This document shows, piece after piece, positions 9,215-62,104 of a stretch of 64,000 nt of DNA (positions are counted from its first letter, which is position 1; the number at the start of each line of letters is the position of its first letter). This stretch comes from Flavobacterium limnosediminis JC2902. Lineage in GTDB: Bacteria > Bacteroidota > Bacteroidia > Flavobacteriales > Flavobacteriaceae. Location: contig NZ_AVGG01000001.1 in NCBI RefSeq assembly GCF_000498535.1, positions 62,001 through 126,000 of the forward strand. The letters run 5' to 3'. A program made the translations under genes and the position numbers. Under the pieces are notes generated by a model that saw only the letters and a list, made by a program, of their open reading frames with translations, did not search any database and was not told the DNA's origin.

Positions 9215-9245
9215 AATATATATGTATCTCTGTAAAATTGAACAG

Positions 9246-9253: not shown

Positions 9254-9363
9254 AAAATTTTATATTAGTTATACTGTAAATTATATTTAAAGTTGTCTAA
9301 TGACCTATTCGAAACGCTTAATTTCTAGCATTTCAAAATCATTACAATCATTTGTAAATAAAT

Positions 9364-9391: not shown

Positions 9392-9440
9392 GTGTTTTAA
9401 TTATTTTTGATTACCATGACTTAAACAAGTGAAAAACCAT

Positions 9441-11342: not shown

Positions 11343-11365
11343 ACTATCAATTGTTAAATTTTTAA

Positions 11366-11373
11366 CAAAGATA
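11366..11373 (-). promoter_or_regulatory. -7 promoter box of the FISUMP lipoprotein gene
   Basis: TATCTTTG on the minus strand (11373-11366), 23 nt before the proposed GTG start at 11342. A TTG lies 22 nt further up. Its position supports the shorter reading frame. Confidence 0.5.
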
Positions 11374-11853: not shown

Positions 11854-11861
11854 TAACTTTG
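11854..11861 (+). promoter_or_regulatory. -7 promoter box of the LRR gene
   Basis: TAACTTTG matches TAnnTTTG, 50 nt upstream of the ATG at 11912. No well-spaced TTG is visible. Confidence 0.45.
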
Positions 11862-11911
11862 TGATAGTAAAAAATACCACGACATGAAATGTATAATCAA
11901 ACTTATTTTTT

Positions 11912-45930: not shown

Positions 45931-47433
45931 TTATTTAACCCCCTGCATTAATTTTTTCACGAAAGGCGAAATGGCGATTAACACTATTCCGGCTATCAAG
46001 GCATAAATGGCTAATTGTTGGTAGCCGTCGGCATAGACGGTTAGTTTTTCAAGATTGGACGCATTTTCAGATGCTTCCGCTATATTGGCACCTAATAATC
46101 CTGCGAAATACTGTCCGTAGGCACTCGCCAGGAACCACATTCCCATAATTACCGCCTGTGTTTTCTGAGGAGATAATTTAGTCATCGCGCTCATTCCGAT
46201 TGGCGACAGGCACAACTCACCAAAGGTAATCACAAACCAACCAAAGGTGAACAAATCCAAGGAAGTTCTCCCCGAGGCATCGGCAAAGAACTTCGTGTAA
46301 TAAAACACATAGAAACCACCGGCTAAAAAGATAAATGCCAATCCGAATTTCACTACCGTATTGGGTTCGATTTTTCTTTTGTTCATCCAAAGCCACACCA
46401 TTCCGATTAATGCTGCAAACGCAATAACGAATAAGGAATTCGCGGAATTGTTGACCCCATTGGGATCCACTTTGAATCCAACCAACGTGTTTTCAAGATT
46501 GTTTGCCGCAAATAAACTCAATGATCCGCCACTTTGTTCGAAAAACGCCCAAAAGAAAATGGAAAATATAATGAATACTAAAGCTGCGAAAAGTTTTTTA
46601 TTTTCCGCCAAAGTAAAATTGCGCATTTCATAAAACAGATACAGCAATGATGCCGGTCCGATAACGAACATGAAATAGTCGGTATATTCCGTTTTGGCTA
46701 CCATCGTCATGATAATCGGAATGATTACCAAAGAACCGATATAGGTAGCAATTTCGAGCATTCTTTTCTTTGAAGGTTCCAAATGATTTAGCGGCGAAAG
46801 ACCAATTTCGCCCAAACTTTTCTGGGTTTGTGTAAACGTCAGCAAACTTATTATCATCACAATGGCAGCAAATCCGAACGCTACATTCCAACGCAAATGT
46901 TCCGGTATGTAGGAGGCGAACATATTCCCGTTCGCAACAGCGATACAGATATACCCTCCGATTAAAGCACCTAAGTTCACCCCTGCATAAAACAGTGAAA
47001 ACCCGGCATCTCTCCTGTGGTCATCGTCTTTGTATAATTTACCTACCATGGTGGAAATATTCGGCTTGAAAAATCCGGTTCCGATAATGGTAAAACTGAT
47101 ACCGAAGAAAAAGAATTGTTTCGGATCCAATGCCAGAATAATACTTCCGGCTATCATCAGTAATCCACCCCAAAACAAGGATTTTCTATAACCTAAAATC
47201 TTGTCGGCAAACAATCCGCCTATAAACGTGAATGCATATACGAACGCTTGAGTCGCTCCATATTGCAGATTCGCTGTTTTTTCATCCATCATCAATTGGC
47301 TAACCATAAAGATGACCAACATCCCGCGCATTCCGTAGAAACTGAAACGTTCCCACATCTCGCTGAAAAATAAATACCAAAGTTGTTTTGGGTATTTCCC
47401 TTTAAAATTCTGAATTTCTGATGTTGTACTCAT
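45931..47433 (-). CDS. POT/PTR-family proton-coupled peptide transporter
   Basis: Imports di- and tripeptides with protons. 500 residues and about 12-14 membrane helices. The proton-coupling motif ExxERFxYY appears as EMWERFSFYGMRG, with Phe at the first Tyr position, and the second POT signature as GTGFFKPNISTMVGKLY. GELCLSPIGMSAMTKLSPQK near the C-terminal end is also characteristic. It lies 1 base after the stop of the next transporter gene, so both are on one mRNA. Three tandem POT genes together with a dipeptidyl peptidase show strong investment in peptide uptake; individual substrate preference cannot be read from sequence. Confidence 0.95.
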   Translation of the reverse strand: MSTTSEIQNFKGKYPKQLWYLFFSEMWERFSFYGMRGMLVIFMVSQLMMDEKTANLQYGATQAFVYAFTFIGGLFADKILGYRKSLFWGGLLMIAGSIILALDPKQFFFFGISFTIIGTGFFKPNISTMVGKLYKDDDHRRDAGFSLFYAGVNLGALIGGYICIAVANGNMFASYIPEHLRWNVAFGFAAIVMIISLLTFTQTQKSLGEIGLSPLNHLEPSKKRMLEIATYIGSLVIIPIIMTMVAKTEYTDYFMFVIGPASLLYLFYEMRNFTLAENKKLFAALVFIIFSIFFWAFFEQSGGSLSLFAANNLENTLVGFKVDPNGVNNSANSLFVIAFAALIGMVWLWMNKRKIEPNTVVKFGLAFIFLAGGFYVFYYTKFFADASGRTSLDLFTFGWFVITFGELCLSPIGMSAMTKLSPQKTQAVIMGMWFLASAYGQYFAGLLGANIAEASENASNLEKLTVYADGYQQLAIYALIAGIVLIAISPFVKKLMQGVK

Positions 47434-47434
47434 G

Positions 47435-49087
47435 TTAGCTAATTCCTTTTTCTTTCATTACGGCATTCAAACGTTTCAGGATAGACAATCCTAACAAGGT
47501 GGCAAACAATAGCAGTAAGCAATTCACCAAAAAGAAATTGGCTTTGTTTTCATAGTCATACCACATACTGGCCAATACGCCCGATAATTTATTTCCGATG
47601 GAAATCGACAGGAAGAATCCTCCCATCATTAAGGCAGTTAAACGTGGCGGACTCAATTTAGAAACAATTGATAATCCCATCGGAGACAGACACAGTTCAC
47701 CAATCGTAATCACACCGTACGTTCCCACTAACCAAAGCGGAGATACTTTAACAGCGCCGTTACTTCCGATATAAACCGCTGCCACCATGAACAGACATGA
47801 TAAAGCTGATATGAATAATCCCAATACAATTTTTGAAGGTGTGGATGGTTCCTTGCCTCTTTTGCGCAAAAACATAAAGAATCCTACCACTAGAGGTGTG
47901 AGCAGAATAATCCAGCCCGGATTTACAGACTGAAACAATTCGGTATTGATTAAGGAAACCTTTTGTTCCGGATTTTTTTCTAATTCGGCGCGTTGCTCCT
48001 CAGAGATATTGGTGAAATACACATCTTTTCCTTGGACTTTGACAGGTTCTCCCGCTTCGTTTTTTTCAGCCTGGAACTGACTGTCGTATTTCTGAACTTC
48101 TTTCGTTTGGAAATCCTTCTGATCTACGAGATAAATTCCGGTCAGTGCTTTTTCTGTAGTTCCGGTTACCTGTCTGTCGGTATAATAATTAGCCCAACGG
48201 GTTAAGGCCGTACCGTTTTGTTTAAAGACCGCCCAGAACAACATCCCGACCGCGAAAATGGCCAACAAAGCACCCAAGGGACGTTTGTCTTCATGGTTTG
48301 CTTTAAGATACAGGCGAACATAAAAAACGATAATCGGAATACAGGCGAAAATAAAAGCATCTGTAGAATCACTCTTGAAAATATTATCCGGAATCATCCA
48401 TCCTATGGCTCCGCAGATAATCGCCGGTAAAAACACCGCGCCAAGAATTCTCCCCAAACTGATATCGCCTTCCTGAACCGGTTTCATCACATTGGCACTT
48501 TCCAGATGTTTTCTTCCCAAGGTAAAAATAATCAGACCGATAAACATTCCGACTCCGGCGGTGATGAAAGCAGCACTCCAACCGTACTGGTTGCGCATGA
48601 AAGCGGCAATGATGTTACAGATGAAGGCTCCGATATTGATTCCCATATAGAAAATATTGTACCCTGCGTCTTTATTGGCTTTGTACTCTTCGGTAGAATA
48701 TAAATTCCCTACTAAAGTTGAAATACTTGGTTTAAAGAATCCGTTACCTACTATAATCAGGGCCATCGACACATAAAAGGCAGTAATATTATGAAAACCT
48801 AATCCGATGTAGCCCAATCCCATCAGGAATCCTCCGAGATAAATGGCTTTGAAGTACCCCAACACACGGTCGGCCAAATACCCTCCCAAAAATGGAGTCA
48901 AGTAAGTTAAGGCGATGTAGGTTCCGAAGATATCATCGGCATATTTATCGGAAAAAGCCAAACCACCTGTAGCGGCAGGGTCAATCATGTATAAAACAAA
49001 AATTCCGATGATTAAATAATATCCGAAACGTTCCCACATTTCGGTAAAAAACAAAAACAATAATCCTCTTGGATGTTTATTCCTCAT
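47435..49087 (-). CDS. POT/PTR-family peptide transporter with long central loop
   Basis: Second POT transporter, 550 residues. It keeps the full ExxERFxYY motif (EMWERFGYYLIIG) and VGNGFFKPSISTLVGNLY. It differs from its neighbours by a hydrophilic insertion of about 80 residues in the middle (about residues 290-375, e.g. DQKDFQTKEVQKYDSQFQAE and EEQRAELEKNPEQKVSLI) between helices. GELCLSPMGLSIVSKLSPPR is near the end. The loop may be periplasmic and could affect substrate capture. A terminator lies between its start and the third transporter gene upstream. Confidence 0.94.
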   Translation of the reverse strand: MRNKHPRGLLFLFFTEMWERFGYYLIIGIFVLYMIDPAATGGLAFSDKYADDIFGTYIALTYLTPFLGGYLADRVLGYFKAIYLGGFLMGLGYIGLGFHNITAFYVSMALIIVGNGFFKPSISTLVGNLYSTEEYKANKDAGYNIFYMGINIGAFICNIIAAFMRNQYGWSAAFITAGVGMFIGLIIFTLGRKHLESANVMKPVQEGDISLGRILGAVFLPAIICGAIGWMIPDNIFKSDSTDAFIFACIPIIVFYVRLYLKANHEDKRPLGALLAIFAVGMLFWAVFKQNGTALTRWANYYTDRQVTGTTEKALTGIYLVDQKDFQTKEVQKYDSQFQAEKNEAGEPVKVQGKDVYFTNISEEQRAELEKNPEQKVSLINTELFQSVNPGWIILLTPLVVGFFMFLRKRGKEPSTPSKIVLGLFISALSCLFMVAAVYIGSNGAVKVSPLWLVGTYGVITIGELCLSPMGLSIVSKLSPPRLTALMMGGFFLSISIGNKLSGVLASMWYDYENKANFFLVNCLLLLFATLLGLSILKRLNAVMKEKGIS

Positions 49088-49099
49088 AGTGCTAATATT

Positions 49100-49129
49100 A
49101 AAAAAGCCCGTAGTGGTTCCTACGGGCTT
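49100..49129 (-). terminator. intrinsic terminator between the second and third peptide-transporter genes
   Basis: Perfect 10-bp stem AAGCCCGTAG (49104-49113) with CTACGGGCTT (49120-49129), 6-nt loop. The T-run lies on the minus-strand side (49103 down), so it ends the transcript of the gene stopping at 49159. Confidence 0.85.
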
Positions 49130-49158
49130 GAAAGATATAAAAATATTTTTTAAAATAA

Positions 49159-50850
49159 TTATTTTACACCGTGCATCATTTTCTTAAGAATCGGAGTGAT
49201 TAAGAATAAGATAATTGATGCGATACCACACAATACCACGAATACCATGAAGAATTCGTATAAATTGTGAATCTCGAATCCGGCAAATACAGGATTCTCA
49301 GCACTGATCTGGTTATCAGACAATAATTTAAGTTGCGCTTCTGTAGGCACCACTTTTTTGTCCAACACATCCTGAAGATTGATTCCTAATTCTTTTGCCT
49401 TATTGAACTTATCCCCTGTTGCAGGTAAAATAGACCCTAAGGTTCCCGATAAAGCATATCCGGCAGCATTCGAAATAAAGAATACCCCGTAAGCCAACGA
49501 AGCAAAACGTTTTGGAGCCAATTTACCAACCAATGATAATCCGATCGGAGATAAACACAATTCACCAAATGTTTGAATTAAGTATAATAAGATTAACCAA
49601 TAAATAGCCAACAAACCACTGTTTCCTAAATCCTTAACATTATGAGCGATGATGAAATAACTGATTGCAATCAACATTAATCCCATTGCTTGTTTGAACG
49701 GAGATGTTGGTTCCTTACCTGCATTTCTTAATTTATCCCAAAGAACACTGAAAGGCACTGCAAACATAACCACAAATAAACCGTTGAAGATTTGCACCAT
49801 GGAAGGCGGCATGTTCCAACCGAAGAAGTTTCTGTCTGTCTGATTATCCGCAATGAAGGTTAAAGATGATCCCGCCTGTTCAAACGCAGCCCAGAAGAAG
49901 ATTACGAAAAACGATACGATATAAATTACCCAAATTCTTTGCGTCTCAACTTTTGTTAAAGTCTTATCGGATAAAATCAAACCTGCCAATGTTAAACCAC
50001 TCGCATAAATAATCGGATAGATAATTGTTTTAACCACGTTGTCCCCTTCCGTTAAGAAATGGAACGCAGCAAATAGACCAAGGAATGCAACAACTGCCAT
50101 TACCAAAGACATAGTCGTAAAGTGCGCTTTCTGAGATTCTCCCTCTTCATAATCAGCTGTTTCATGACCTGAAGGCATACCACCGATTGGCTTCCCTTCC
50201 GGAGTAACCACATATTTGTTTTTAAGGAAATAGAATACTGCAGTTCCTATTAACATCGCTAAAGCTGCAGCCAAAAACCCCCATTTGAACGCGTGAACGT
50301 CTCTGATTCCGCCAGAATCCTTAACATCCCCTACAAACGGACAGATAAACTGACCCAAGAAAGCCCCGATATTGATTCCCATATAGAAAATCGTGAAAGC
50401 AGTATCTAATTTTGTTTTTTCCTGTTTCGGATACAAACTTCCCACCATACTGGAAATATTCGGCTTGAAGAATCCATTACCGAAGATGATAATCCCCAAT
50501 GCGCTCCACATTAATGTTGTCGCTAAGGATAAATTTGTTGAGAACACGCTGGCACTGGCAAAAAGCAACAATTGCCCTACTGCCATCATCATACCTCCCA
50601 GCATGATACAGTTTCTGTTTCCGAAGAAACGATCGGCAATAAAACCTCCTAAAAGTGGTGTCAAGTAACAAAGACCTAAAAATCCACCATAAATAAGGGA
50701 AGCATCTGCCTCTTTCATTAATAATGAATTTACCAGGAATAAGGTTAATAGTGCGCGCATTCCGTAGAAGTTGAAACGCTCCCACATCTCGGTTCCGAAT
50801 AATACCCAAAGTCCTTTTGGATGTCCTTGTTTAACTGCTGTTTCGCTCAT
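49159..50850 (-). CDS. POT/PTR-family peptide transporter
   Basis: Third POT transporter, 563 residues. Motifs: EMWERFNFYGMRALLTLFLV, FGNGFFKPNISSMVGSLYPK, AAFEQAGSSLTFIADNQTDR and GELCLSPIGLSLVGKLAPKR. A hydrophilic loop after helix 6 (EGKPIGGMPSGHETADYEEG) and another near the C-terminus (about residues 480-520) are longer than in the first transporter. It follows the DPP-IV-like peptidase gene by 33 bases in the same direction and is probably co-transcribed with it, coupling dipeptide release to import. Confidence 0.95.
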   Translation of the reverse strand: MSETAVKQGHPKGLWVLFGTEMWERFNFYGMRALLTLFLVNSLLMKEADASLIYGGFLGLCYLTPLLGGFIADRFFGNRNCIMLGGMMMAVGQLLLFASASVFSTNLSLATTLMWSALGIIIFGNGFFKPNISSMVGSLYPKQEKTKLDTAFTIFYMGINIGAFLGQFICPFVGDVKDSGGIRDVHAFKWGFLAAALAMLIGTAVFYFLKNKYVVTPEGKPIGGMPSGHETADYEEGESQKAHFTTMSLVMAVVAFLGLFAAFHFLTEGDNVVKTIIYPIIYASGLTLAGLILSDKTLTKVETQRIWVIYIVSFFVIFFWAAFEQAGSSLTFIADNQTDRNFFGWNMPPSMVQIFNGLFVVMFAVPFSVLWDKLRNAGKEPTSPFKQAMGLMLIAISYFIIAHNVKDLGNSGLLAIYWLILLYLIQTFGELCLSPIGLSLVGKLAPKRFASLAYGVFFISNAAGYALSGTLGSILPATGDKFNKAKELGINLQDVLDKKVVPTEAQLKLLSDNQISAENPVFAGFEIHNLYEFFMVFVVLCGIASIILFLITPILKKMMHGVK

Positions 50851-50883: not shown

Positions 50884-53055
50884 TTATAATTTCTCTTTAA
50901 TGAAATTGGTCATTTTAGTGTACAACTGCAAACGAGTATTTCCTCCGTAAATTCCGTGATTTTTGTCAGGATAAAGCATCATGTCAAACTGTTTGTTCGC
51001 CTGCACCAAAGCTTCAACCATTTTCATTGTATTCTGAACATGAACATTATCATCCCCTGTTCCGTGAACCAAAAGTAAATTTCCTTTTAATTTACTTACA
51101 TGATTGATTGGTGAATTATTATCATAACCACTCGCATTCTCTTGTGGTGTCTGCATAAATCTTTCCGTGTAAACAGTATCGTAGTTTCTCCAGTTGGTTA
51201 CCGGAGCTACTGCAATAGCCGTCTTGAACACATCAGCCCCTTGGAAAATACAGTTTGAAGCCATGAAACCACCATAAGACCAGCCGAAAATACCGATTCT
51301 GGATTTGTCAACATAAGCATACGAACCAAAAACCTTAGCCGCATCAATCTGATCCTCCACCTCGAATTTCCCTAATTCTTTTTGGGTACACTTTTTGAAA
51401 TCGGCACCTTTAAATCCAGTTCCGCGACCGTCCACACAAGCCACGATATAACCTTGTTGTGCCAACATCTTGAACCAATAATCATCCGAATTATTCCAGT
51501 CGTTATTCACCTGTTGCGAACCCGGGCCAGAATATTGGTACATGAATACCGGATATTTTTTAGTAGCATCAAAATCTTTAGGCTTGATCATCCAGGCATT
51601 TAACTTATGCCCTTTTTCGGTGGTTAATTCGAAGAATTCTTTTGAAGGCAAATCGTATTTCGCCAATTTTGTTTCCAAAGCTTCATTTGAAACAATGGTT
51701 TTGATTACTTTCCCGGTTTTTGTTTCGCATAATGTATGCTTCGGAGCATTTTTTGCGCTGGAATATGAATTGATGAAATATTGGAAATTCGGGCTGAATG
51801 TAGCGCCGTTAGTTCCCGTTTCTTTTGTTAAACGTGTTTTGGAACTTCCGTTTAATTTAATACTGTACACATCACGGTTGATGGAACCGTTTTCTGTAGA
51901 CTGGAAGAAAATCATTCCGCTTTTTTCATCAAAACCGTAATACGAAGTCACTTCCCAACTTCCTTTGGTAATCTGTTTTTTCAGCTTCCCGTTTTTATCG
52001 TAGTGATAAATGTGGTTGAAACCGTCTTTTTCCGATGTCCATATGAAACTGTTGTCTTTCAGGAAAGTCAGATTATCGGTTACATCCACATAGGCTTTGT
52101 CCTTTTCATTCAGAACTACCTTTGTTGCACCGGAATTCCCGTCCACAAACAACAAATCCAAATTATTCTGATGACGGTTCAAAACCTGTGCGCTCAAAGT
52201 GTTCGCTTCATTCGCCCACTCGATTCTTGCAATATAGAAGTCGTTGTATTTATCCAGATTGATTTTTTTTGTCGCTCCTGATTTCACATCATAAACGTGT
52301 AAAGAAACAACAGCGTTTTTCTCTCCCGCTTTCGGATATTTGAAAACATTTTGCGTAGGATACAATCCCTTATTATACATATCCATGGAAAATTCAGGAA
52401 CGTTGGTTTCATCAAAACGGATGAATGCTACCTTATCGCTTGCCGCATTCCAGTCGAAAGCACGTACAAAGGCGAATTCCTCTTCGTAAACCCAGTCGGT
52501 AACACCATTAATTACAGAATTTTTCTTTCCGTCGGTTGTAATTTGCGTATGTTTCTTAGCTGCGATGTCATATACATACAGATTGTTTTGATACACATAA
52601 CCGATTTTTGTTCCGTCAGGAGAAAAAGTAGGCTCCTGCACTTTGTAATCGGCTAATTTTGTCAGTTCCTTTGACGCTATGTCGTAGATAAAATAATTGG
52701 CTACAAAAGAATGACGGAAAATCTGATCCGTATGGTTCGCAATTAAAACCTTCTTTTCGTCCTTACTGAACGTGTATGCGTCGATTCCTTCCAATTCCTT
52801 GAAATTTTTGGAGTCGATTAAAGTCGATACCTTATTTAAGGTTGCGAAATCATACAAATCAATTTGAGAAGACCTTGAAGAACGATCATAATTGAGTACA
52901 GTGTACTGATTGGTATTTTTCATGGCTTCCAAAGCAGTCATTCCCTGCGTTCTGAATGCGGCTCCCCAGATTTCTTCAAGGGTAATTTTTTGCTGTGCAA
53001 CCGTCGAAAATGAGGTTAAAACCAACAAAAACAAACATTTAAGAGTATTTTTCAT
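50884..53055 (-). CDS. DPP-IV-like prolyl oligopeptidase (S9 family)
   Basis: Exported serine peptidase that should remove dipeptides from peptide N-termini. I use the ATG at 53055 (MKNTLKCLFLLVLTSFSTVA, signal peptide, 723 residues); an in-frame ATG 19 codons earlier hides the signal. Residues about 100-480 are the DPPIV_N beta-propeller (e.g. PTFSPDGTKIGYVYQNNLYV, GVTDWVYEEEFAFVRAFDWN, where the EE pair typical of DPP-IV binds the substrate N-terminus). The C-terminal alpha/beta hydrolase domain has nucleophile Ser593 in GWSYGGFMAS, the Asp region GTGDDNVHVQNTMKM and the His in PDKNHGIYGGNT. The EE motif supports dipeptidyl-peptidase rather than endopeptidase activity. The downstream POT transporters fit this. 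Confidence 0.95.
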   Translation of the reverse strand: MKNTLKCLFLLVLTSFSTVAQQKITLEEIWGAAFRTQGMTALEAMKNTNQYTVLNYDRSSRSSQIDLYDFATLNKVSTLIDSKNFKELEGIDAYTFSKDEKKVLIANHTDQIFRHSFVANYFIYDIASKELTKLADYKVQEPTFSPDGTKIGYVYQNNLYVYDIAAKKHTQITTDGKKNSVINGVTDWVYEEEFAFVRAFDWNAASDKVAFIRFDETNVPEFSMDMYNKGLYPTQNVFKYPKAGEKNAVVSLHVYDVKSGATKKINLDKYNDFYIARIEWANEANTLSAQVLNRHQNNLDLLFVDGNSGATKVVLNEKDKAYVDVTDNLTFLKDNSFIWTSEKDGFNHIYHYDKNGKLKKQITKGSWEVTSYYGFDEKSGMIFFQSTENGSINRDVYSIKLNGSSKTRLTKETGTNGATFSPNFQYFINSYSSAKNAPKHTLCETKTGKVIKTIVSNEALETKLAKYDLPSKEFFELTTEKGHKLNAWMIKPKDFDATKKYPVFMYQYSGPGSQQVNNDWNNSDDYWFKMLAQQGYIVACVDGRGTGFKGADFKKCTQKELGKFEVEDQIDAAKVFGSYAYVDKSRIGIFGWSYGGFMASNCIFQGADVFKTAIAVAPVTNWRNYDTVYTERFMQTPQENASGYDNNSPINHVSKLKGNLLLVHGTGDDNVHVQNTMKMVEALVQANKQFDMMLYPDKNHGIYGGNTRLQLYTKMTNFIKEKL

Positions 53056-53179
53056 ATAATATGGTGCTAAAAAAACTCCCAATTTTAGTGAAAATTTATC
53101 AATTGAAGGCAATTTAATTTGTTAAAAGGAAAAAATATCACATTAAAGTTCAAATCTGATAGACGATTCTTTTTTACAC

Positions 53180-53301: not shown

Positions 53302-56300
53302 ATGATTAAAAAAGCAGCGTTTTGTATTTCCCTTTTGTTTTTCCTCCAAAGCGCTATTGGACAGGTTTTTGATTACGAAATACTTAACCAGAAAAACGGA
53401 CTCCCATCGTCTACAATTTTTTCGGTAATACAGGACAGCCGCCACCTGATATGGATAGGTACAGATGGTGCAGGATTGGTTCGTTATGACGGAAAAAAAT
53501 TCAGCATCATCAACAAATCCAAAAAATCAGAAGGTTTTTTTGTCACCGATTTAGTGGAAGATCCCAACAATAATATCGTTGTAGCCACCAAATACACCGG
53601 CTTACTGGTATATAACGGAAAAGAATTTTTCAAGGATTTTGACCAAAGCAATTCCCTCATAAAAGGCGATTATGTGCAACGGCTTTTTTCGGCACCGAAC
53701 GGAGTATATTGTTTTACGGACAAAGAAGTTTTTTTACTCAAAAAGGATTATTCCATTCAACTGATTGCTAAATTCAATCAAAAAACGACAGCCATCAATT
53801 CTGTATTTCAAGACAGTCGTTCCAACTTTTACATTGGAACAGATGAAGGTATGCTGAAAATTGAAAAAGGCACTGTCACACCCTTCTACCCATCACTACT
53901 CACAGGATATTCAACTATAGTAACCGTAAAAAAAGACGAAGCGGTTATTGGAAATCATAAAGGAGAAGTGTTCCGCTTTGTGTGTAAAACACCAGCCATC
54001 AATGATATCCGGATGGAAGACAAAATAGTGCTTTCCAATGGGGAACCGTTTTTTATCAAAAAAATGCTGTTGGGAAAAAGTGGTTTCATCTGGATGGCCG
54101 GAGACAAGAAGCAAGGATTGACCATGTACATGAAAAACAACATCAGTTTTATAAACAGCAACAATGGTTTTACGGGAGAGAACGTACTGTGTATGTTTCA
54201 GGATAAAAGCGGACAACTTTACTTCGGAACATACGGCACCGGATTATACCGAACACGTTCACAGATTTTCTACAACTACGGCAATGTTCCCGAACTGAAT
54301 ACCCCTTATATTTTTTCGATACTGTCAACCGAAAAGGGAATTTATACCGGAACCGTTAATGAAGGAATCTTCTATTTTGAACCCGACAAAGAAGGCAATC
54401 TTAAACTCATAAACAAATATCCGAGCCTGGAACGTGTGACGGCCCTGCATGAAAATCATAAGAAAGAAATTCTTGCGGGTTCACGCAACGGATTGTTTGA
54501 AATTAAGCAGGGTAAAACCATCCCTTTTACCATAAACGCAAAACTCCCGGCAGAAAAATCCATCCGATTCATCAGGCAGGATCGAAAAAACCGTTATTTT
54601 ATAGGTTTTTCACAGGGATTATGGCTCTTGGATGAAAACCGGAACCTCATTAAAAAAATTTCAGATTTTCAATCCCAAAATGTAACTTCTTTAGAGGAAC
54701 TGAATGAAAAACAATGGTATATCGGAACAAATTCCGGATTATACCTTCTCTCAGAAATCGGCACCAATGACTTTTCCGCTGTAAACATAATTGCCAAAAC
54801 CATTAACACTTCCTGCAAAGACAGCTATGGTAATTTCTGGTTTGCCGGATCAAACGAACTGTATTTCGTAAACCAAAAAACCTTTAAAAAGTACACCAGA
54901 GAAGATGACCTTACATCGACGTTTATCTTCTCCCTTTCTGCAGATAATAATGGCGCTATCTTTCTTGGCCATAACATCGGAATCTCTAAGATTACGGTGG
55001 ACAAAAAAGGGGAATTCAAAAACATCCTGAACTATAATTCCGATAACGGTTTCAGCGGACTAGAAACCAACGCGAGAACACAGGCCAAAGACAAAGACGG
55101 TAATTTATTTTTCGGAACAGCAAAAGGGCTTTATATCTATTTAACGAACTACAGCCGTAAACCAAAATCCAAACCGATATTGAAAATAACCAACATCGAC
55201 GTTTTCAAAAAATCCAAAAACTGGAATGAAACCGATGCAACTGACAATTATTGGTTTAACATTCCTAAACAGGGATATGTATTTGATCCTGAGGAAAACC
55301 AGCTTACTTTCACATTTGGCGTACTCAACTATATGGAAGAAGGGGAAACGATGTATTCTTACAATCTGAAAGGGACGGATAAAAACTGGTCGACGCCATC
55401 CGAATCCAATGAAGTAACCTATTCCAATCTGAAATACGGTGATTATGCTTTTCAGGTGCGACTGGTCGATAAACTCGGGAATATCAAAAGTCCTCCGGTA
55501 GCATACACTTTTAAAATCGACACGCCTTACTATTTTAAATGGTGGTTCCTTTTGCCCGTTTTCTGTTTCATAGGATTGTTCCTAAAATTAATATTTGACA
55601 GGGCCTCGACCTACAACAAGGATTTCATAAAGAATTTTTCGGAAACCGGAGAGAACAACCGGGAAATACAGACCTTCTTTTTCTTCCTGGGAATTATTTT
55701 TCCAATAACCGAAGTGATAAACCTGTATTTTATAAAAAGAGCCGAATCAGAATTACTGATAAACCTCATTATCGGAATCACTTTTATTACATTGTACATC
55801 ATCTCCAAAAGATCTGACCGTCTTGACCGTTACCTCAGATCCATATTCGTAGTGATCCTGATCAGTTACTCTGCCTACGTTATCTCGAAAATCGCGACAC
55901 AGTCTTTCAATTTAATTACCTATACAGAATTTTTACTGATTTTATTTTTCTCCTACAGCGCTTTTAAAAATGTAAAGCAGTACGTCGCTTTTGTGGTTAT
56001 ACTGCTGGCTTCACTGCTGTTTTTACTTTTGACCATCCCTTCCGAAACCGAACAGATAATAACCTTAATCAACACCTCTTTTATTGTTTTGATTATTAAT
56101 TATGCCCGACGCATCTCGATACTGAACAACAACGATAAAGTGCTGTTTTCGAACAGTATTATCAACAACTCTAACTCGTTGACCATTGCATCCGACAGAA
56201 AGGGAAGGTTAACGTTTTGCGGAAAATCCATCGAAAAAATACTAGGGTACACTCCGGAAGAAGTGATGGGAGAAAATTTCTGGAAATTAACAATGGAGGA

Positions 56301-59300
56301 AGAGTTTAAGGACATTGATTACAATGACATCTATGTCCCGGATTCCATTTATACCCGAAAACTGAAATGCAAAAACGGGGAATACAAATACATTCAGTGG
56401 ACAGACCAGAAATACAGCAACAACCTATTCGTATCCAACGGGCAGGACATCACCGGTAAAATTATGGTGGAAGAACAATACCGCAATTTGGTGCAGTTCG
56501 CTTCCGATATCATTTTTGAAGTGGATAAAAAAGGATTTTTCACTTTCGTAAACCAGTTTGCCGAAAAGTCATTGGGTTATCCTTTGGATTTTTTTATCGG
56601 AAAGCATTTTTCATGCCTTATAAAACCCGAACATGCAAAAACCATTGAAGAATTCTATATAAAACAAAACGAAAGCCAATCCGATTTTGACATCATCGAA
56701 TTTCCTATTTTAAAAAGCGACGGCGAGGAAATGTGGGTATCGCAGAAAGTTACGGTCAAAAAAGACGAAAACGGAAAAATAACCGGCTATTCCGCTATCG
56801 TAAGGGACATCACTAAATTTAAAAAAATAGAATTGGAAGAGAGTCTGCGTCAGAAAAAAAATCATTTGCTGAACAAAACGCTAAACCAGCTCTCCACCCT
56901 GAATTTCTTAACCTACAAGAACCAGGAAAAACTGATTGGACACATCATTAAGGAAGCGGCTATAGCGCTGGACATCAGCAGAGCCGGTTTATGGAACAAA
57001 ACAGAAGAAGGAATCGAATTGTTTTGCCTGTATGAAAAAGACTTTGACCGTTTTACAAACAATTCCACCCTACGTAAAACCGATTTTCCTATTTATTTTA
57101 ACGCGATAGAGACGCTGCCGTTTATTGTGGCTTCCGATGTTCAGAATAATCCCCAGACTTTCGAATTCAGGGATCTTTACTTTAAAACACACGACATCAG
57201 GTCCTTACTGGACTTCCCCATTTATGTTTCAGGTAAATTAAAAGGAGTCACCTGTTATGAGAACACCGGCGAAATAAGAAACTGGTCAACCGATGAAATT
57301 AATTTTGCCCGAACCGTATCAGACATCATTGCCTTGGCTATTGAAACCCTGAAAAGAAAAAGTGCAGAAGAACTGATCGTTTACAAAAGTGAGATTTTGT
57401 CTTCAATCACCAAAACCACTGAAAAAATGCTGAAAAGCAACAGTCTCAATGAGATTTTTCAGGAATCAATGGGCTATATTGGGGAAGCCACCAAAGTTGA
57501 CCGTCTTTACTATTTCGAAAACGACATCGCAACAAATCTTTTAAGCCAACGTCTGGAATGGACCAGCAAGGAAATCCTCAAAGAAATCGACAATCCTGAT
57601 TTGCAGAATATCCCTCACGATCTGTACCCGGAATTCATGAAAGTGCTCCTGCAAAAAAGACCATACCAATCAATTGTAAAGGACATTCACGAAAGTTCCT
57701 TTAAAGAGATATTACAGGAACAGAAAATCTTATCCATCTTAATCTTACCGATATTCATCAAAGAAGTCTTTCATGGTTTTATCGGCTTTGACGACTGCAG
57801 TTCGGAAAGAGTCTGGGGTCCTGACGAGATAAACATTCTTCAGACCTTCACTAACAACATTGCCTCCACCATTGAACGCATCAACAGCGAGAAAACCATA
57901 AAAGAAAGCGAGGAGAAATTCCGTCTGCTGGCCAACAATATCCCGGCAACAGTATACCTTGTAAAATACAATACCGAACGAACGAAACTATTCCTTAATG
58001 ACGAAATCGAAAAACTCACAGGATACACCAAAGAAGATTTCTTTGAGGGCAGAATTTCCCTCTTCGATTTGTATCATCCGGACGAAAAAGACCAGATACG
58101 CAGCGAAATAGAAAAATCCATCGCTAATGGTAAGCCTTTCCACGTTTCCTGTCGCCTGGTCAGGAAAGACGGAGACATCGTCTGGATAGAAGAATACGGG
58201 GAAGCGATTATTGTTGAAAACAAGATTTCTTACATTGAAGGAGTTGTGATCGAAACGACAGAACGTCGCAAAATGCAGGAAGCGATTAAAGAAAAAGAAA
58301 TTGCACAGGCCGCCAACAAAGCCAAAACACAGTTTTTGGCCAATATGAGTCACGAGATCCGAACTCCGTTAAACGGAATTATCGGTTTCAGTAATCTGTT
58401 GCTGAAATCCAACTTAACTTCCGTTCAGCAACAATACATGATTACGGTAAATCAGTCGGCCGACGCACTGTTGGAAATTGTTAATGACATCCTGGATCTT
58501 TCTAAAATTGAAGCCGGAAAACTGGAATTAGACATCACCAAAACCAATTTACACGATATTATTAATCAGATTATTGACATGGTTAAATATTCGGCCCATG
58601 AGAAAAAACTGGATCTGATCATCAATATTGATGAAAACATGCCTTGTCTTATCTGGATAGATGAAATAAGACTGAAACAAATTCTAATCAACCTGCTTTC
58701 AAATGCCATAAAATTCACTCAGGAAGGCGAAATTGAACTGGAAATCCAGTATAAACCTTTGGCTCATGATCATTGCAAAATGAAATTCATGGTAAAAGAT
58801 ACCGGTATAGGGATTCGGCCAGAAAACAAGAAAAAAATATTTGAGGCTTTTTCACAGGAAGACAACTCAACCACAAGGAAATACGGCGGAACCGGACTGG
58901 GCATCCCAATCTCCGAAAGCCTATTACGGTTAATGAAAAGCAAACTTGAAATAGAAGACCGTGTCGGTGGCGGGACTATATTTTTCTTTGAACTAAAGGT
59001 AAAAGCCAAACCATGTGGCACATTGCATGAACTCGACAACAATAAGATAAACCAAGTTCTATTGATCGATGACAATGACAGTAACACATTGGTCATTAAA
59101 AGAATGCTGAACCATTATAACATTACAACCCTTACCAACAAAAATTATCAGAACGCGTACAAGTATAATACGGAAGTGGATTTACTTTTCGCCGATTACG
59201 AACTGATCGGAAAGGAAGGACTTAACGAACTTTCAAAATTCAAAAAACCAATTATTCTGATGCAAAACTCCAATGCCACGGAAATTACCATTCCGGAAAA

Positions 59301-59811
59301 TTGCATGATCAAACCAATTGTCAAACCGGTAAAAATTCAAATCCTGCAGCACATCCTGAACGAAATAAACAATACGGAAAGTACCGAAGAGCACATCCAC
59401 CCGAAAAAAGAACCGAAAGAAATCACCATAAATAACCCTTATAGAATACTTATTGTTGAGGATAATAAAATCAACATGCTCCTTTCCAAAACTTTAGTAC
59501 AGAAAATTGTTCCTCATGCCATAATTTCAGAAGCCGTAAACGGTGTGGAAGCGCTGGAACAGTTCGAACAGCACCATCCGGAAATCATACTGATGGATAT
59601 TCAGATGCCTTTAATGAACGGGTATGAGGCTACGGAAGAAATCAGGAAAAAGGACAAAGACTGCATCATAATTGCCTTAACCGCAGGGATCATTGAAGAA
59701 GAACAGGAAAAATGCAAATCCATGGGAATGAATGACTACATAACAAAACCTATTGAAAAAAAGGTATTGGAAAAAGCGCTTAGAAAATGGACTAAAAAAC
59801 CGAAAAGCTAA
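53302..59811 (+). CDS. giant hybrid sensor histidine kinase with propeller, membrane, PAS, GAF and two receiver domains
   Basis: A single 2169-residue protein. After a signal peptide (MIKKAAFCISLLFFLQSAIG), residues about 25-640 are two-component-regulator propeller repeats (FSVIQDSRHLIWIGTDGAGL, MFQDKSGQLYFGTYGTGLYR). About 663-740 is a Y_Y_Y domain (YSYNLKGTDKNWSTPSESNE). A membrane helix (WWFLLPVFCFIGLFLKLIF) and roughly six or seven more helices (790-935) follow. Then come PAS (955-1060), PAS (1065-1175), GAF (1195-1350), GAF (1370-1525), PAS (1535-1650), HisKA with His1684 in FLANMSHEIRTPLNG, the HATPase (LKQILINLLSNAIKFT, KDTGIGIRP, GGTGLGIPIS), a divergent receiver with Asp1965, and a canonical receiver with Asp2099 (LMDIQMPLMNGYEA). 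No DNA-binding domain or Hpt is present. The extra membrane bundle between propeller and PAS domains is unusual. It likely phosphorylates a separate regulator or Hpt protein. Confidence 0.93.
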   Translation: MIKKAAFCISLLFFLQSAIGQVFDYEILNQKNGLPSSTIFSVIQDSRHLIWIGTDGAGLVRYDGKKFSIINKSKKSEGFFVTDLVEDPNNNIVVATKYTGLLVYNGKEFFKDFDQSNSLIKGDYVQRLFSAPNGVYCFTDKEVFLLKKDYSIQLIAKFNQKTTAINSVFQDSRSNFYIGTDEGMLKIEKGTVTPFYPSLLTGYSTIVTVKKDEAVIGNHKGEVFRFVCKTPAINDIRMEDKIVLSNGEPFFIKKMLLGKSGFIWMAGDKKQGLTMYMKNNISFINSNNGFTGENVLCMFQDKSGQLYFGTYGTGLYRTRSQIFYNYGNVPELNTPYIFSILSTEKGIYTGTVNEGIFYFEPDKEGNLKLINKYPSLERVTALHENHKKEILAGSRNGLFEIKQGKTIPFTINAKLPAEKSIRFIRQDRKNRYFIGFSQGLWLLDENRNLIKKISDFQSQNVTSLEELNEKQWYIGTNSGLYLLSEIGTNDFSAVNIIAKTINTSCKDSYGNFWFAGSNELYFVNQKTFKKYTREDDLTSTFIFSLSADNNGAIFLGHNIGISKITVDKKGEFKNILNYNSDNGFSGLETNARTQAKDKDGNLFFGTAKGLYIYLTNYSRKPKSKPILKITNIDVFKKSKNWNETDATDNYWFNIPKQGYVFDPEENQLTFTFGVLNYMEEGETMYSYNLKGTDKNWSTPSESNEVTYSNLKYGDYAFQVRLVDKLGNIKSPPVAYTFKIDTPYYFKWWFLLPVFCFIGLFLKLIFDRASTYNKDFIKNFSETGENNREIQTFFFFLGIIFPITEVINLYFIKRAESELLINLIIGITFITLYIISKRSDRLDRYLRSIFVVILISYSAYVISKIATQSFNLITYTEFLLILFFSYSAFKNVKQYVAFVVILLASLLFLLLTIPSETEQIITLINTSFIVLIINYARRISILNNNDKVLFSNSIINNSNSLTIASDRKGRLTFCGKSIEKILGYTPEEVMGENFWKLTMEEEFKDIDYNDIYVPDSIYTRKLKCKNGEYKYIQWTDQKYSNNLFVSNGQDITGKIMVEEQYRNLVQFASDIIFEVDKKGFFTFVNQFAEKSLGYPLDFFIGKHFSCLIKPEHAKTIEEFYIKQNESQSDFDIIEFPILKSDGEEMWVSQKVTVKKDENGKITGYSAIVRDITKFKKIELEESLRQKKNHLLNKTLNQLSTLNFLTYKNQEKLIGHIIKEAAIALDISRAGLWNKTEEGIELFCLYEKDFDRFTNNSTLRKTDFPIYFNAIETLPFIVASDVQNNPQTFEFRDLYFKTHDIRSLLDFPIYVSGKLKGVTCYENTGEIRNWSTDEINFARTVSDIIALAIETLKRKSAEELIVYKSEILSSITKTTEKMLKSNSLNEIFQESMGYIGEATKVDRLYYFENDIATNLLSQRLEWTSKEILKEIDNPDLQNIPHDLYPEFMKVLLQKRPYQSIVKDIHESSFKEILQEQKILSILILPIFIKEVFHGFIGFDDCSSERVWGPDEINILQTFTNNIASTIERINSEKTIKESEEKFRLLANNIPATVYLVKYNTERTKLFLNDEIEKLTGYTKEDFFEGRISLFDLYHPDEKDQIRSEIEKSIANGKPFHVSCRLVRKDGDIVWIEEYGEAIIVENKISYIEGVVIETTERRKMQEAIKEKEIAQAANKAKTQFLANMSHEIRTPLNGIIGFSNLLLKSNLTSVQQQYMITVNQSADALLEIVNDILDLSKIEAGKLELDITKTNLHDIINQIIDMVKYSAHEKKLDLIINIDENMPCLIWIDEIRLKQILINLLSNAIKFTQEGEIELEIQYKPLAHDHCKMKFMVKDTGIGIRPENKKKIFEAFSQEDNSTTRKYGGTGLGIPISESLLRLMKSKLEIEDRVGGGTIFFFELKVKAKPCGTLHELDNNKINQVLLIDDNDSNTLVIKRMLNHYNITTLTNKNYQNAYKYNTEVDLLFADYELIGKEGLNELSKFKKPIILMQNSNATEITIPENCMIKPIVKPVKIQILQHILNEINNTESTEEHIHPKKEPKEITINNPYRILIVEDNKINMLLSKTLVQKIVPHAIISEAVNGVEALEQFEQHHPEIILMDIQMPLMNGYEATEEIRKKDKDCIIIALTAGIIEEEQEKCKSMGMNDYITKPIEKKVLEKALRKWTKKPKS

Positions 59812-59830: not shown

Positions 59831-59838
59831 TATCTTTG
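59831..59838 (+). promoter_or_regulatory. -7 promoter box of the mevalonate gene pair
   Basis: TATCTTTG, 27 nt upstream of the ATG at 59866. Since the box would lie in the coding region of any frame opened at 59836, it confirms the later start. Confidence 0.5.
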
Positions 59839-59865
59839 CAGCCAAATGTATTCAAGAAAAATAAA

Positions 59866-61182
59866 ATGACGAAAGCGGTTAGCGGATTTTCGAAATTATC
59901 GAAAGAAGAAAAAATAAACTGGATTGCAAACTCACATTTTTTAAATCCGGAAGAAGCTACAACTATATTACGGAAATATTGGAACTCGGATGCCGATTTA
60001 CAAAAACTGCATGACGAGTTCATCGAGAATACGATTTCCAACTTTTATCTGCCGCTGGGTGTGGCGCCCAATTTTCTGATTAACGGAAAAAATTACACCA
60101 TCCCGATGGCGATAGAGGAAAGTTCTGTGGTGGCCGCCGCCTCAAAAGCTGCCAAATTTTGGTCCAACCGTGGTGGGTTTAAAGCCACTGTTATCAACTC
60201 GGAAAAAATCGGACAGGTTCACTTTATCTATGCCGGAAATAAAGAAAAACTACAGCAGTTTATAAACGAAATCAAACCTAAATTCTTCAGCGAAACCGAT
60301 AGCATAACCAAAAACATGCAAAAACGCGGTGGCGGAATTCTGGACATTGAACTCAGGGACAAAACCGCTGCTCTGGAAAATTATTACCAGCTTCATGCTA
60401 CCTTTGAGACCAAAGACAGTATGGGGGCAAATTTCATTAATTCCTGTCTGGAACAATTTGCCAAAACCCTAAAAGAAGAAGCCCAAAAGAGTACTATATT
60501 ATCTGAAGAAGAAAGAGATATTCAGATTGTAATGAGTATTTTATCAAACTACGTCCCTAACTGTATTGTAAGAGCCGAAGTTTCATGCCTTGTTTCCGAT
60601 TTGAAGGAGGACAAACACATCTCACAGGAAGAATTTGTGGAAAAATTCATCCGCGCCGTACAGATTGCAGAAGTGGAACCTTTCAGAGCCGTAACACATA
60701 ACAAAGGCATCATGAACGGAATTGATGCCGTGGTTTTGGCTACCGGAAATGATTTCAGAGCGGTGGAAGCGGGTATACACGCCTATGCTGCAAGAAACGG
60801 AAACTACAGCAGTCTTTCCCATGCAAAAGTGGAAAACGGTGTCTTTACTTTCTGGATGGAAATTCCGCTGGCTTTAGGAACCGTTGGCGGGCTGACCAAT
60901 TTACATCCGCTGGTAAAAATGTCCATGGAAATGTTGGGCAATCCTTCTGCTCATGAATTAATGCAGATTGTGGCCGTTGCGGGTCTGGCACAAAATTTTG
61001 CCGCCCTTCGCTCGTTAACCACAACCGGAATTCAGCAGGGTCACATGAAAATGCACCTGATGAACATTTTAAATCAATTCAATGCTTCCGAAACCGAACG
61101 AAAACTGGTAGTGAAACATTTTGAAAAACATACGGTTTCCCATTCGGCAGTGGTGGCCTATCTGGAAGAAATCAGAAAATAA
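59866..61182 (+). CDS. mvaA: hydroxymethylglutaryl-CoA reductase, class II
   Basis: Interconverts HMG-CoA and mevalonate, the committed step of the mevalonate route to isoprenoids. 438 residues from the ATG at 59866 (MTKAVSGFSKLSKEEKINWI), set by the -7 box at 59831. Catalytic residues: Glu at 84/85 in MAIEESSVVAAASKAAKFW, Lys in AVTHNKGIMNGIDAVV, Asp in VLATGNDFRAVEAG and His393 in IQQGHMKMHL. The layout fits class II (bacterial) HMGR; many are called degradative, but here the downstream GHMP kinase and the lack of MEP-pathway genes point to biosynthesis. The kinase gene starts 7 bases downstream. Confidence 0.95.
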   Translation: MTKAVSGFSKLSKEEKINWIANSHFLNPEEATTILRKYWNSDADLQKLHDEFIENTISNFYLPLGVAPNFLINGKNYTIPMAIEESSVVAAASKAAKFWSNRGGFKATVINSEKIGQVHFIYAGNKEKLQQFINEIKPKFFSETDSITKNMQKRGGGILDIELRDKTAALENYYQLHATFETKDSMGANFINSCLEQFAKTLKEEAQKSTILSEEERDIQIVMSILSNYVPNCIVRAEVSCLVSDLKEDKHISQEEFVEKFIRAVQIAEVEPFRAVTHNKGIMNGIDAVVLATGNDFRAVEAGIHAYAARNGNYSSLSHAKVENGVFTFWMEIPLALGTVGGLTNLHPLVKMSMEMLGNPSAHELMQIVAVAGLAQNFAALRSLTTTGIQQGHMKMHLMNILNQFNASETERKLVVKHFEKHTVSHSAVVAYLEEIRK

Positions 61183-61189
61183 AAAAACT

Positions 61190-62104
61190 GTGGAACAAAC
61201 ATTTTACAGCAACGGTAAACTATTACTGACTGGAGAATACGTAGTACTTGATGGCGCAAAAGCACTGGCCATACCCACGAAATTTGGGCAGTACCTTCGT
61301 GTTTACCCGGGAAAAAACAATACGATTTCATGGACCAGTTATGATCAGGACGGTTCTGTTTGGTTCGACGATGAAATTCTGTTCAGCGACATTAAAAACA
61401 AAAAACAGTTTGATTCGTCGCTTATCATAAAAAACACACTGATTGAAATCTTACATCAGGCATACCGGCAAAGCTCATATTTCCTTGATAATTCTGAAGG
61501 TTACGTCATCACAACGCATTTAACCTTTCCAAGATTTTGGGGATTGGGAACATCTTCCACCCTAATAAACAACATTGGCCAGTGGTTAAAAATTGACGCT
61601 TTTGAATTGCTTCGAAAAAGTTTTGGAGGAAGCGGTTATGACATAGCCTGTGCACAGTATGACACTCCGATTCTATACCATTTGGAAAACGAAAAACCAT
61701 GTATTGAATCCATTTCCTTTGCCCCGGCATTTGCAGAAAATCTCTATTTTGTATACCTGAACCAAAAGCAAAGCAGCAAGGCGGCAATTGCAGCTTATTA
61801 CCACAAGCAGCCACAGATTTCGAAAACGATTGAGAAAATCAATGCCATTACAGCCAATATCTTAAAGACAGAAGACAGCACCCTATTTTCAGAATTACTC
61901 GAACATCATGAAATAATAATGTCGCATGTACTGGAAATGCAGACTGTAAAGGAAGCTTTTTTTCCTGACTTCGAAGGCACCATAAAAAGTCTCGGAGCCT
62001 GGGGAGGTGATTTTGTACTGGTAGTTTCAGATGAAGACCCAACACCCTATTTTGAAAAAAGAGGCTATTCTATTATTGTACGATTCAACGATATGATAAA
62101 ATAA
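61190..62104 (+). CDS. GYDIA-family GHMP kinase (mevalonate-pathway type)
   Basis: Small-molecule kinase of the GHMP superfamily. I use the GTG at 61190 (translated VEQTFYSNGKLLLTGEYVVL, 304 residues); an earlier ATG at 61121 lies inside mvaA and adds non-family sequence. The GHMP ATP-binding loop is present as FPRFWGLGTSSTLINN, and the later FGGSGYDIACAQYDTP gives the family its name. C-terminal GHMP motif: LGAWGGDFVLVVSD. Because it directly follows HMG-CoA reductase it probably phosphorylates mevalonate or a mevalonate phosphate, but the exact acceptor of this subfamily is not established to my knowledge. Confidence 0.85.
   Translation: MEQTFYSNGKLLLTGEYVVLDGAKALAIPTKFGQYLRVYPGKNNTISWTSYDQDGSVWFDDEILFSDIKNKKQFDSSLIIKNTLIEILHQAYRQSSYFLDNSEGYVITTHLTFPRFWGLGTSSTLINNIGQWLKIDAFELLRKSFGGSGYDIACAQYDTPILYHLENEKPCIESISFAPAFAENLYFVYLNQKQSSKAAIAAYYHKQPQISKTIEKINAITANILKTEDSTLFSELLEHHEIIMSHVLEMQTVKEAFFPDFEGTIKSLGAWGGDFVLVVSDEDPTPYFEKRGYSIIVRFNDMIK

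Follow-up and report, generated by a model that had tools for sequence, protein, structure and literature searches.

Probable old fusion of an HTCS-type propeller sensor to a 1+6-helix membrane kinase in Flavobacterium and probable repeated loss of the propeller

Introduction

Hybrid two-component systems (HTCS) of Bacteroidota are usually built from a propeller, a Y_Y_Y domain, one helix, a kinase, a receiver and an AraC-type DNA-binding domain. The window analyzed here, a stretch of 64,000 nucleotides from Flavobacterium limnosediminis JC2902 (contig NZ_AVGG01000001.1), encodes a hybrid histidine kinase (53302..59811, + strand) which was originally predicted to depart from this plan and to represent a fusion of a propeller sensor with a PAS/GAF hybrid kinase. 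This raises the question of how the two parts came together and which of them is the constant part of the receptor. The sensing domain of a multi-input sensor kinase is usually hard to identify. At this locus, related genes with and without the outer sensor are found at one chromosomal place, with kinase and receiver residues kept in each, and such matched forms make a direct test possible of what the membrane core still senses.

Results

Gene and Domain Architecture

The gene starts with ATG and forms a single open frame for 2169 amino acids, as predicted, which is not a product of chance. Full-length relatives are present in F. enshiense DK69 and Flavobacterium sp. H122 (77 and 51% identity in the best segment), and four close relatives (L031, L054, L055, and L056) encode 2168–2174 residues, have the same neighbours as the window gene and are 61–85% identical to it in the membrane-PAS and 561–770 search stretches. 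A domain-by-domain Pfam search and an AlphaFold2 model agree with the domain list of the original prediction, the order being signal peptide, propeller, Y_Y_Y, one helix, six-helix bundle, three PAS, two GAF, HisKA/HATPase, a degenerate receiver and an intact receiver. All kinase features given below lie on the + strand.

The N-terminus is signal peptide-like (residues 1–20, 53302..53361), consisting of the hydrophobic stretch MIKKAAFCISLLFFLQSAIG followed by Q, with the presumed cleavage site between the two. It is followed by a periplasmic double beta-propeller of Reg_prop repeats (residues about 24–613, 53371..55140), which was recognized by Pfam (Reg_prop, E 6.7e-21), by phmmer matches to 3v9f and 4a2l, by Foldseek matches to 4a2l/4a2m (BT4663, best E 4.7e-41) and by the strands of the model. 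For the sensor half, the Foldseek alignments with BT4663 and BT3049 extend to about 780 columns, at an rmsd of 7–8. The Y_Y_Y domain covers residues about 626–739 (55177..55518; Pfam match to 679–739, 6.8e-12) and is likewise seen in the model strands.

The first membrane helix, TM0 (residues 747–768, 55540..55605), is found both by hydropathy and in the AlphaFold2 model. The predicted extra membrane bundle was recovered in the models as six further helices (786–810, 818–837, 839–866, 871–887, 891–911, and 913–956), with the bundle itself spanning residues 786–937 (55657..56112) and the last helix continuing to 956 and into PAS1 as a link. The main model was built from 57 sequences (mean pLDDT 82), and a second one from 20 sequences agrees with this helix plan and also yields the strands of propeller and Y_Y_Y. 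Hydropathy at the chosen threshold finds the first helix and only four of the six bundle helices, and the count of six therefore rests on the models. The kinase thus has a signal peptide-like start and seven predicted helices, and its outside/inside topology is likewise a predicted one.

No Pfam family exceeded the cut-off for the bundle, and searches with the bundle of the window and of five relatives gave no 7TMR-DISM family up to E 5, an absent profile match being compatible with a shared fold. Among the 50 Foldseek matches listed, most were PAS structures. Of solved structures, ImcA (8wcn) resembles the six-helix part most closely (Z 12.4, rmsd 4.0, 184 residues, 10% identity). As unrelated helical bundles can score up to about Z 13, this value falls within the chance range, and ImcA was rejected as a family for the bundle and kept as a lead only. 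Position 804, which lies in the first helix of the bundle, is acidic in all 36 propeller-less rows and in 11 of 20 propeller rows. In two relatives (L035 and L036) the bundle was not matched by BLAST, yet it aligns in the alignment.

PAS-type Pfam families match in up to three stretches and GAF in two. PAS 1 (residues about 959–1052, 56176..56457) is based on the model and PAS matches, and PAS 2 (about 1058–1172, 56473..56817) and GAF 1 (1211–1347, 56932..57342) are based on Pfam. GAF 2 (about 1361–1525, 57382..57876) is the second Pfam GAF stretch, its limits being those of the query cuts, which are matched in homologues. PAS 3 (1563–1648, 57988..58245) is a PAS_3 match at 6.8e-32.

The HisKA domain (58321..58518; Pfam 1674–1739, 4.5e-21) contains the phospho-acceptor His1684, assigned by alignment, and is followed by HATPase_c (residues 1787–1901, 58660..59004; 1.4e-25). 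The kinase motifs are present in 56 of 57 aligned rows, the single miss being truncated at a contig end. The first receiver, REC1 (1919–2015, 59056..59346), is divergent as predicted: it was detected only when residues 1919–2015 were scanned by themselves, with 22.5 bits (E 1.3e-4) below the curated Response_reg cut-off of 30.2. By reading, its Asp is usually kept and its Lys is kept, with the conserved Thr/Ser replaced, and this receiver is confined to the group of genes sharing the synteny of the window. REC2 (2049–2160, 59446..59781) scores above the cut-off (2.9e-28), and in the 55 rows that have it D2054, D2099, and K2149 are present throughout, position 2127 being Thr in 54 rows and Ser in one. 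Both the His and the receiver Asp required for a phosphorelay are therefore intact. The chain stops nine residues past the REC2 match, and no DNA-binding or HTH family was found in the kinase by a Pfam scan up to E 0.01, in line with the predicted lack of such a domain. A search for a partner Hpt protein (PF01627) gave no match in the own genome at E 0.001; a control gave matches in eight of 14 genomes.

Genomic Neighbourhood

The kinase gene is preceded by a divergent DPP-IV (S9) peptidase gene (50884..53112, – strand) and three POT (PTR2) transporter genes (45931..50850, – strand), and followed by a co-directional HMG-CoA reductase gene (59836..61182, + strand), all assigned by Pfam. A small gene beyond the latter (61121..62104, + strand) is conserved in position and has no Pfam match; we take it to be probably a GYDIA-type GHMP kinase gene. 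Propeller and propeller-less forms share this site, which is bordered on one side by the DPP-IV/POT cluster and on the other by the HMG-CoA reductase operon, with DPP-IV divergent at a distance of 31–893 bp in 25 of 25 measured loci and HMG-CoA reductase 24 bp downstream in the window and 5–84 bp downstream in 25 of 26 loci. The peptidase and transporter genes might suggest that the kinase senses peptides. This idea was not adopted, since DPP-IV and HMG-CoA reductase genes also adjoin without the kinase: among 34 tested genomes in which no kinase was found at the site, 22 have the two genes in divergent orientation with no more than 240 bp between them, according to distances worked out by hand from match tables. 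The distance is 0.5–1.9 kb in nine further genomes, 5.7 kb in one and about 40 kb in one, and one genome had no DPP-IV match. The neighbourhood is therefore weak evidence for a peptide ligand.

Distribution of Propeller and Propeller-Less Forms

A membrane-PAS homologue is present in 262 of 398 Flavobacterium genomes, and the propeller form was found in 22 of 398 (more than 100 bits with the search stretch 561–770, the next match reaching 73 bits). Outside the genus, four genomes of a 397-genome family sample match, in the PAS part only. The architecture is thus not a common one, and no description of it or of its losses was found in the open-licence literature. The DPP-IV/HMG-CoA reductase site holds 17 propeller genes, nine propeller-less genes and one broken gene (L093), and a second gene group located elsewhere in the genomes also comprises both forms, with the propeller in three of 30 rows. 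The 57 rows studied were picked among the best-scoring matches and not at random; the propeller-less kinases among them have 1327–1630 amino acids.

L093 was rejected as a propeller-less gene, because its propeller half ends another contig of the same genome. Its alignment to L067 breaks off at residue 816 where the first contig stops matching and resumes from 816 on the second, which may reflect a misassembly or a rearrangement. It is included in the 57-row tree, the first clade test, the junction profile, the reading of residue 804 and REC1, and the motif and gap counts, and left out of the change count, the loss count and the AU test given below. Other broken relatives are L057, with its receivers after a stop, G163, with frameshifts, and G329, whose gene is divided between two contigs. 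The frameshifts of G163 were not taken as a sign of a decaying propeller, as the adjoining GHMP gene is broken in like manner, suggesting a poor assembly. A search for a free-standing propeller gene in 13 propeller-less genomes gave matches of at most 57 bits, except for a second, long gene in G219 and the split gene of G329.

The Junction Motif

At the junction of Y_Y_Y and TM0 lies the motif TPYYFKWWF (residues 741–749, 55522..55548), identified by its conservation in propeller forms: P742, Y744, W747, W748, and F749 are invariant in 20 of them, and the motif was found by pattern in 19 and by reading in the last (L060). A related motif was read between Y_Y_Y and the helix in nine of 10 ordinary HTCS-length genes. 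A junction profile exceeded 10 bits in 16 of 37 propeller-less N-termini (L093 included), compared to none of 740 shuffles and none of 57 other membrane stretches; the other 21 N-termini scored below 10 bits, and some of these may be new N-termini. Ordinary HTCS score low as well, with two of 10 above 10 bits, and the HTCS origin of the junction is hence based on a short motif recognized by reading. A tblastn search of the propeller-less loci with 20 propeller halves revealed no remnants of blades, the sole match being the 32-residue junction in L059.

Phylogeny of Kinase Core and Propeller

In the 57-row tree, the syntenic and the other gene group are split at a support of 100, with both forms present in each. 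A single clade of propeller forms was rejected (AU p 1.4e-5), and with it a single recent fusion, although the test alone gives no direction. The original prediction therefore stands insofar as a propeller-Y_Y_Y part has been joined to a membrane-PAS/GAF kinase, but not as one late fusion. Seven changes of form are required on the tree, a total which by itself does not indicate a direction either. One gain at the base followed by seven losses, or by six or five when weak nodes are collapsed, needs no more steps than this minimum, and the pattern thus fits loss. The core trees are quick searches. A tree of the propellers recovers the division into these two groups with a support of 96/97 and has 11 of 17 splits in common with the core tree; L058 takes a different position in each tree, both of them supported, and some recombination is therefore likely. 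In the second group, where three of 30 rows carry a propeller, a few gains would be possible by count alone.

Discussion

The reading we favour, with a probability of roughly 0.6, is that an HTCS sensor was joined to a 1+6-helix receptor kinase in an old fusion, and that this outer sensor is dispensable and has repeatedly been lost. The fusion would predate the split of the two gene groups, and the propeller would then have disappeared about five to seven times, with membrane helices and kinase being retained. Such a history would make the bundle and the PAS/GAF part the constant core of the receptor and the propeller a dispensable input, and it is probable that this core senses something itself. 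In propeller forms, a ligand outside the cell would rearrange the propeller/Y_Y_Y dimer, and TM0 and the six-helix bundle would relay the change via one long helix into PAS1, at which stage the PAS/GAF inputs would join. The kinase would then phosphorylate His1684 and the phosphate would pass to REC2 and on to a further partner, with REC1 possibly serving as a largely inactive spacer receiver. The originally suggested integration of an external glycan or peptide signal with internal ligands is a conjecture.

The direction of change, which we infer, could also be the opposite one, with a propeller-less ancestral kinase that acquired propeller and Y_Y_Y in several separate fusions, or with recombination carrying them from copy to copy. 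The propeller-less forms are by far the commoner ones (262 genomes with the core against 22 with the propeller), long rows are scarce in the second group, L058 is placed differently in the propeller and core trees, and a clear junction relic is absent from 21 of 37 propeller-less N-termini. We nevertheless regard repeated gain as rather unlikely, though the most serious of the alternatives: the propellers of the two groups split across one branch, as the kinases do, the stretch 561–770 scores more than 100 bits in all of them compared to at most 73 for ordinary Flavobacterium HTCS, the junction is carried by some of the propeller-less genes, and each fusion would have had to strike one joint ahead of one and the same helix. 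Still less probable is that the protein is an ordinary HTCS in function, with the propeller as its only real sensor, for a glycan or a peptide, and bundle, PAS and GAF domains as passive spacers. This would suit the alignment of the sensor half to BT4663 and BT3049 and the adjoining DPP-IV and POT genes, but 27 second-group and nine first-group genes without a propeller keep bundle, PAS/GAF, kinase and REC2, and the acidic residue 804 is held in every propeller-less row. That the gene is decaying, chimeric or an assembly artefact, as the few broken relatives might hint, is hardly credible and is refuted for the window gene by its one open frame with catalytic motifs and by four full-length relatives with like neighbours.

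Along with the preferred history of fusion and loss, a bolder proposal may be put forward as an improbable one. The 1+6-helix bundle might be an undescribed membrane-sensing receptor domain, confined to Flavobacterium in the samples searched, which responds to a signal carried in the membrane, such as a quinone or an isoprenoid lipid perhaps produced with the aid of the mevalonate operon headed by the kinase gene, with the propeller as an optional and several times removed addition. If true, the genes would form a natural series of beheaded receptors.

Compared to known systems, the kinase shares with the HTCS BT4663 and BT3049 of Bacteroides thetaiotaomicron the double propeller, Y_Y_Y, the pre-helix motif, HisKA, HATPase and a receiver. 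It differs by six additional helices (1+6 predicted instead of a single membrane helix), three PAS and two GAF domains, an additional, degenerate receiver and the lack of a C-terminal AraC-type DNA-binding domain, and in that most relatives of its core have no propeller. An HTCS-type sensor is thus not bound to a design with a single helix and DNA-binding output. Propeller-less PAS/GAF hybrid kinases of Flavobacterium have the bundle, PAS/GAF order, kinase and REC2 of the window kinase, but no propeller/Y_Y_Y and, in the second group, no REC1 either. Its predicted plan of an outer N-terminal domain, seven helices and inner signaling domains resembles that of 7TMR-DISM receptors and of other seven-helix receptor kinases such as BtsS; here the outer domain is a propeller, the predicted helices are arranged as 1+6 with a linker, and no 7TMR-DISM Pfam family matched. 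ImcA of Pseudomonas aeruginosa, to which the six-helix part was likened, is a diguanylate cyclase with GGDEF output, and its six-helix domain is described as important for activity (PMC10904736).

Domain architecture of the kinase

The window gene (53302-59811, + strand) is a single intact frame of 6510 bp. Its product, a hybrid kinase of 2169 residues, has a signal peptide-like start followed by propeller repeats, a Y_Y_Y domain (residues 679-739, Pfam), a first membrane helix (residues 747-768) and, according to structure models, six further helices (residues 786-937, the last one extending to 956). This bundle is followed by PAS, PAS, GAF, GAF and PAS domains in that order and then by HisKA, HATPase, a weak receiver (REC1), a good receiver (REC2) and the stop codon. 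Pfam and the models thus bear out the domain list of the original prediction, as does the Pfam scan for the DNA-binding domain said to be missing, which found none up to E 0.01. The "six or seven" membrane helices are predicted to be one plus six; the count of six comes from the models, hydropathy alone having picked up four bundle helices besides the first helix. The models are of fair mean pLDDT (80-82), but since the pTM is only 0.57-0.59 the relative domain positions in them are not trustworthy. Charges in the bundle loops (KRSDRLDR between bundle helices 2 and 3, NYARR where the last helix ends) fit the inner side of the membrane; the bundle is therefore likely to start and finish inside, with an even helix count.

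Distribution in genus and family

Searches with residues 717-1059 yielded matches in at least 262 of 398 Flavobacterium genomes, a lower bound as at most five candidates were scored per genome. Open frames among the matches listed mostly comprised about 1235-1500 codons, which leaves no room for a propeller. A second query, residues 561-770 (at most seven candidates scored per genome), gave matches above 100 bits in 22 of the 398 genomes, two of them with the gene broken in the assembly (G163 and G329); the next best match, at 73 bits, was an ordinary 1430-codon frame of the length of a classical hybrid two-component system (HTCS). The same order is found in other genomes, and the architecture is real, unusual and uncommon in the genus. 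In a family sample (397 genomes, 237 genera), four genomes outside the genus matched, in the PAS part only (query positions 212-341 of 343), and the sole match outside the genus among 40 relatives was likewise to the PAS part. Relatives carrying homologs include F. enshiense DK69 and Flavobacterium sp. H122; two matches from Clostridia (L029, L030) were left out.

Genomic neighborhood and conserved residues

Altogether, 57 loci were fetched (17 + 20 + 20), from matches among the 40 relatives and mostly the best of the genus-wide 717-1059 matches; together with the window gene, and with the distant L047 left out, they gave 57 kinase rows. Of these, 27 lie between divergent DPP-IV and HMG-CoA reductase genes or at a remnant of that arrangement (at L058 the contig runs out, and L093 is split). 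In all 25 loci measured, DPP-IV and kinase genes are divergent; 5-84 bp separate kinase and reductase in 25 of 26 measured loci, the exception being L057. Of 34 genomes in which no kinase was found at this syntenic place, 22 have divergent reductase and DPP-IV genes no more than 240 bp apart. The kinase gene therefore heads the reductase operon, inside what other species have as a short divergent promoter region, and the spacing suggests that both genes are co-transcribed. The remaining 30 rows lie in another neighborhood, itself conserved, with a gene of about 284 aa downstream (23/30), which we take to be a zinc metallopeptidase, and one resembling aldehyde dehydrogenase upstream (20/30). 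In the window, three consecutive POT transporter genes (45931-50850, - strand) adjoin DPP-IV; their number and likeness vary among relatives. Ten other large frames (1663-40485) were mostly core-type genes, among them H+ pyrophosphatase, DUF5686, Fib_succ_major, Omp85, MacB/FtsX, a purine bienzyme, MreB, PBP transpeptidase, RodA/FtsW and a tail-specific protease.

Forms without a propeller look intact in their kinase and receiver residues. The three kinase motifs were present in 56/57 rows, the missing one being cut by a contig end, and Y894 of the bundle was likewise kept in 56/57. In REC2, Asp2054, Asp2099 and Lys2149 were kept in 55/55 rows, with Thr (54) or Ser (1) at position 2127. REC1, in which the usual Thr/Ser was by reading found to be replaced, occurs in the syntenic group only; in the other group 27-39 residues separate kinase and REC2. 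At position 804, in the first bundle helix, Glu/Asp stands in 36/36 propeller-less vs. 11/20 propeller rows; this comparison is post hoc and uncorrected for kinship but points to the bundle doing work of its own.

Loss or gain of the propeller

The original prediction had read the gene as a fusion of a propeller sensor with a PAS/GAF hybrid kinase. Its first half holds insofar as the sensor half matches solved outer domains of Bacteroides HTCS by sequence (3v9f, 6.6e-31; 4a2l, 4.2e-26), and its predicted structure matches that of BT4663 (4a2l/4a2m; best E 4.7e-41, rmsd 7-8, TM-score on target about 0.64). A new fusion is less apt, however. Seventeen genes at the syntenic place have a propeller and nine do not, the half-gene L093 having been rejected as a tenth; in the second group, three have one and 27 do not. 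The two groups separate at support 100 in the core tree and each contains both forms. Placing all 20 propeller forms in one clade was rejected (log-likelihood 724 lower, AU p 1.4e-5, L093 left out; 1337 lower, AU p 8.9e-76, with L093 counted as short). Without L093, the core tree needs seven changes, and a single basal gain followed by seven losses (six with nodes <80 collapsed, five with nodes <95 collapsed) costs no more than this minimum. The core trees come from quick searches, have SH-aLRT as their sole support measure and contain long branches (L090, L044, L040, L091).

Loss of the propeller rather than gain is favored by sequence comparisons. In the propeller tree, a branch with support 96/97 divides the two groups, just as their kinases are divided. 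Furthermore, some propeller-less proteins retain the stretch that adjoined the propeller: a 50-column profile of the propeller-membrane junction scored above 10 bits in 16 of 37 propeller-less N-termini, L093 included (for example FQIETPFYFNWWF in L076), and in 0/740 shuffled and 0/57 control stretches; the strict motif occurred in 6/37 vs. 11/7400 shuffles. This type of motif belongs to HTCS, judging by ten ordinary HTCS-length genes of the genus, nine of which by reading carry one ahead of the helix, for example PPWYKTIWF and PFWATWWF (strict pattern in 3/10, profile above 10 bits in 2/10). On the other hand, propeller and core trees have only 11 of 17 splits in common, with L058 moving, 21 of the 37 short N-termini have no clear junction relic, and propeller-blade relics were not found at propeller-less loci. 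On balance, the window gene is best seen as a member of an old sensor kinase family that has kept its propeller, in preference to a new fusion.

Possible output and divergent relatives

By analogy to known HTCS and hybrid kinases, a signal would pass from the outer sensor via first helix, bundle, long helix and PAS/GAF domains to the kinase and REC2. The search for a partner, suggested earlier, gave no Hpt domain in the organism's genome by profile, and no Y_Y_Y match other than the window kinase exceeded the cut-off in that genome. Phosphate may go to a divergent Hpt or straight to a regulator, or REC2 may act as a phosphate sink. What the membrane core does can be tested with the natural pairs that differ in having the propeller.

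Several relatives deviate from the common layout. L057 (G206; 6962-11896, on the contig of L028, Flavobacterium sp. H122) is a propeller form without PAS2 and GAF1 match, whose frame stops after the kinase with both receivers in the DNA downstream; a frameshift or sequencing error may account for this break. L093 and L104 (G329, contigs C54 and C23) are one long kinase gene split at residue 816 (L067 numbering), one half adjoining a gene resembling adenosylhomocysteinase, by either rearrangement or misassembly. Between GAF2 and PAS3, L062 has about 190 additional residues (811-1004), possibly another sensor domain. In one propeller clade (L064, L065, L067, L069) the GAF1 match is absent, and the PAS/GAF number therefore varies within the family. 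Finally, in G219 the syntenic place is occupied by a propeller-less kinase (L059), and a propeller form (L060) lies elsewhere, the reverse of G206.
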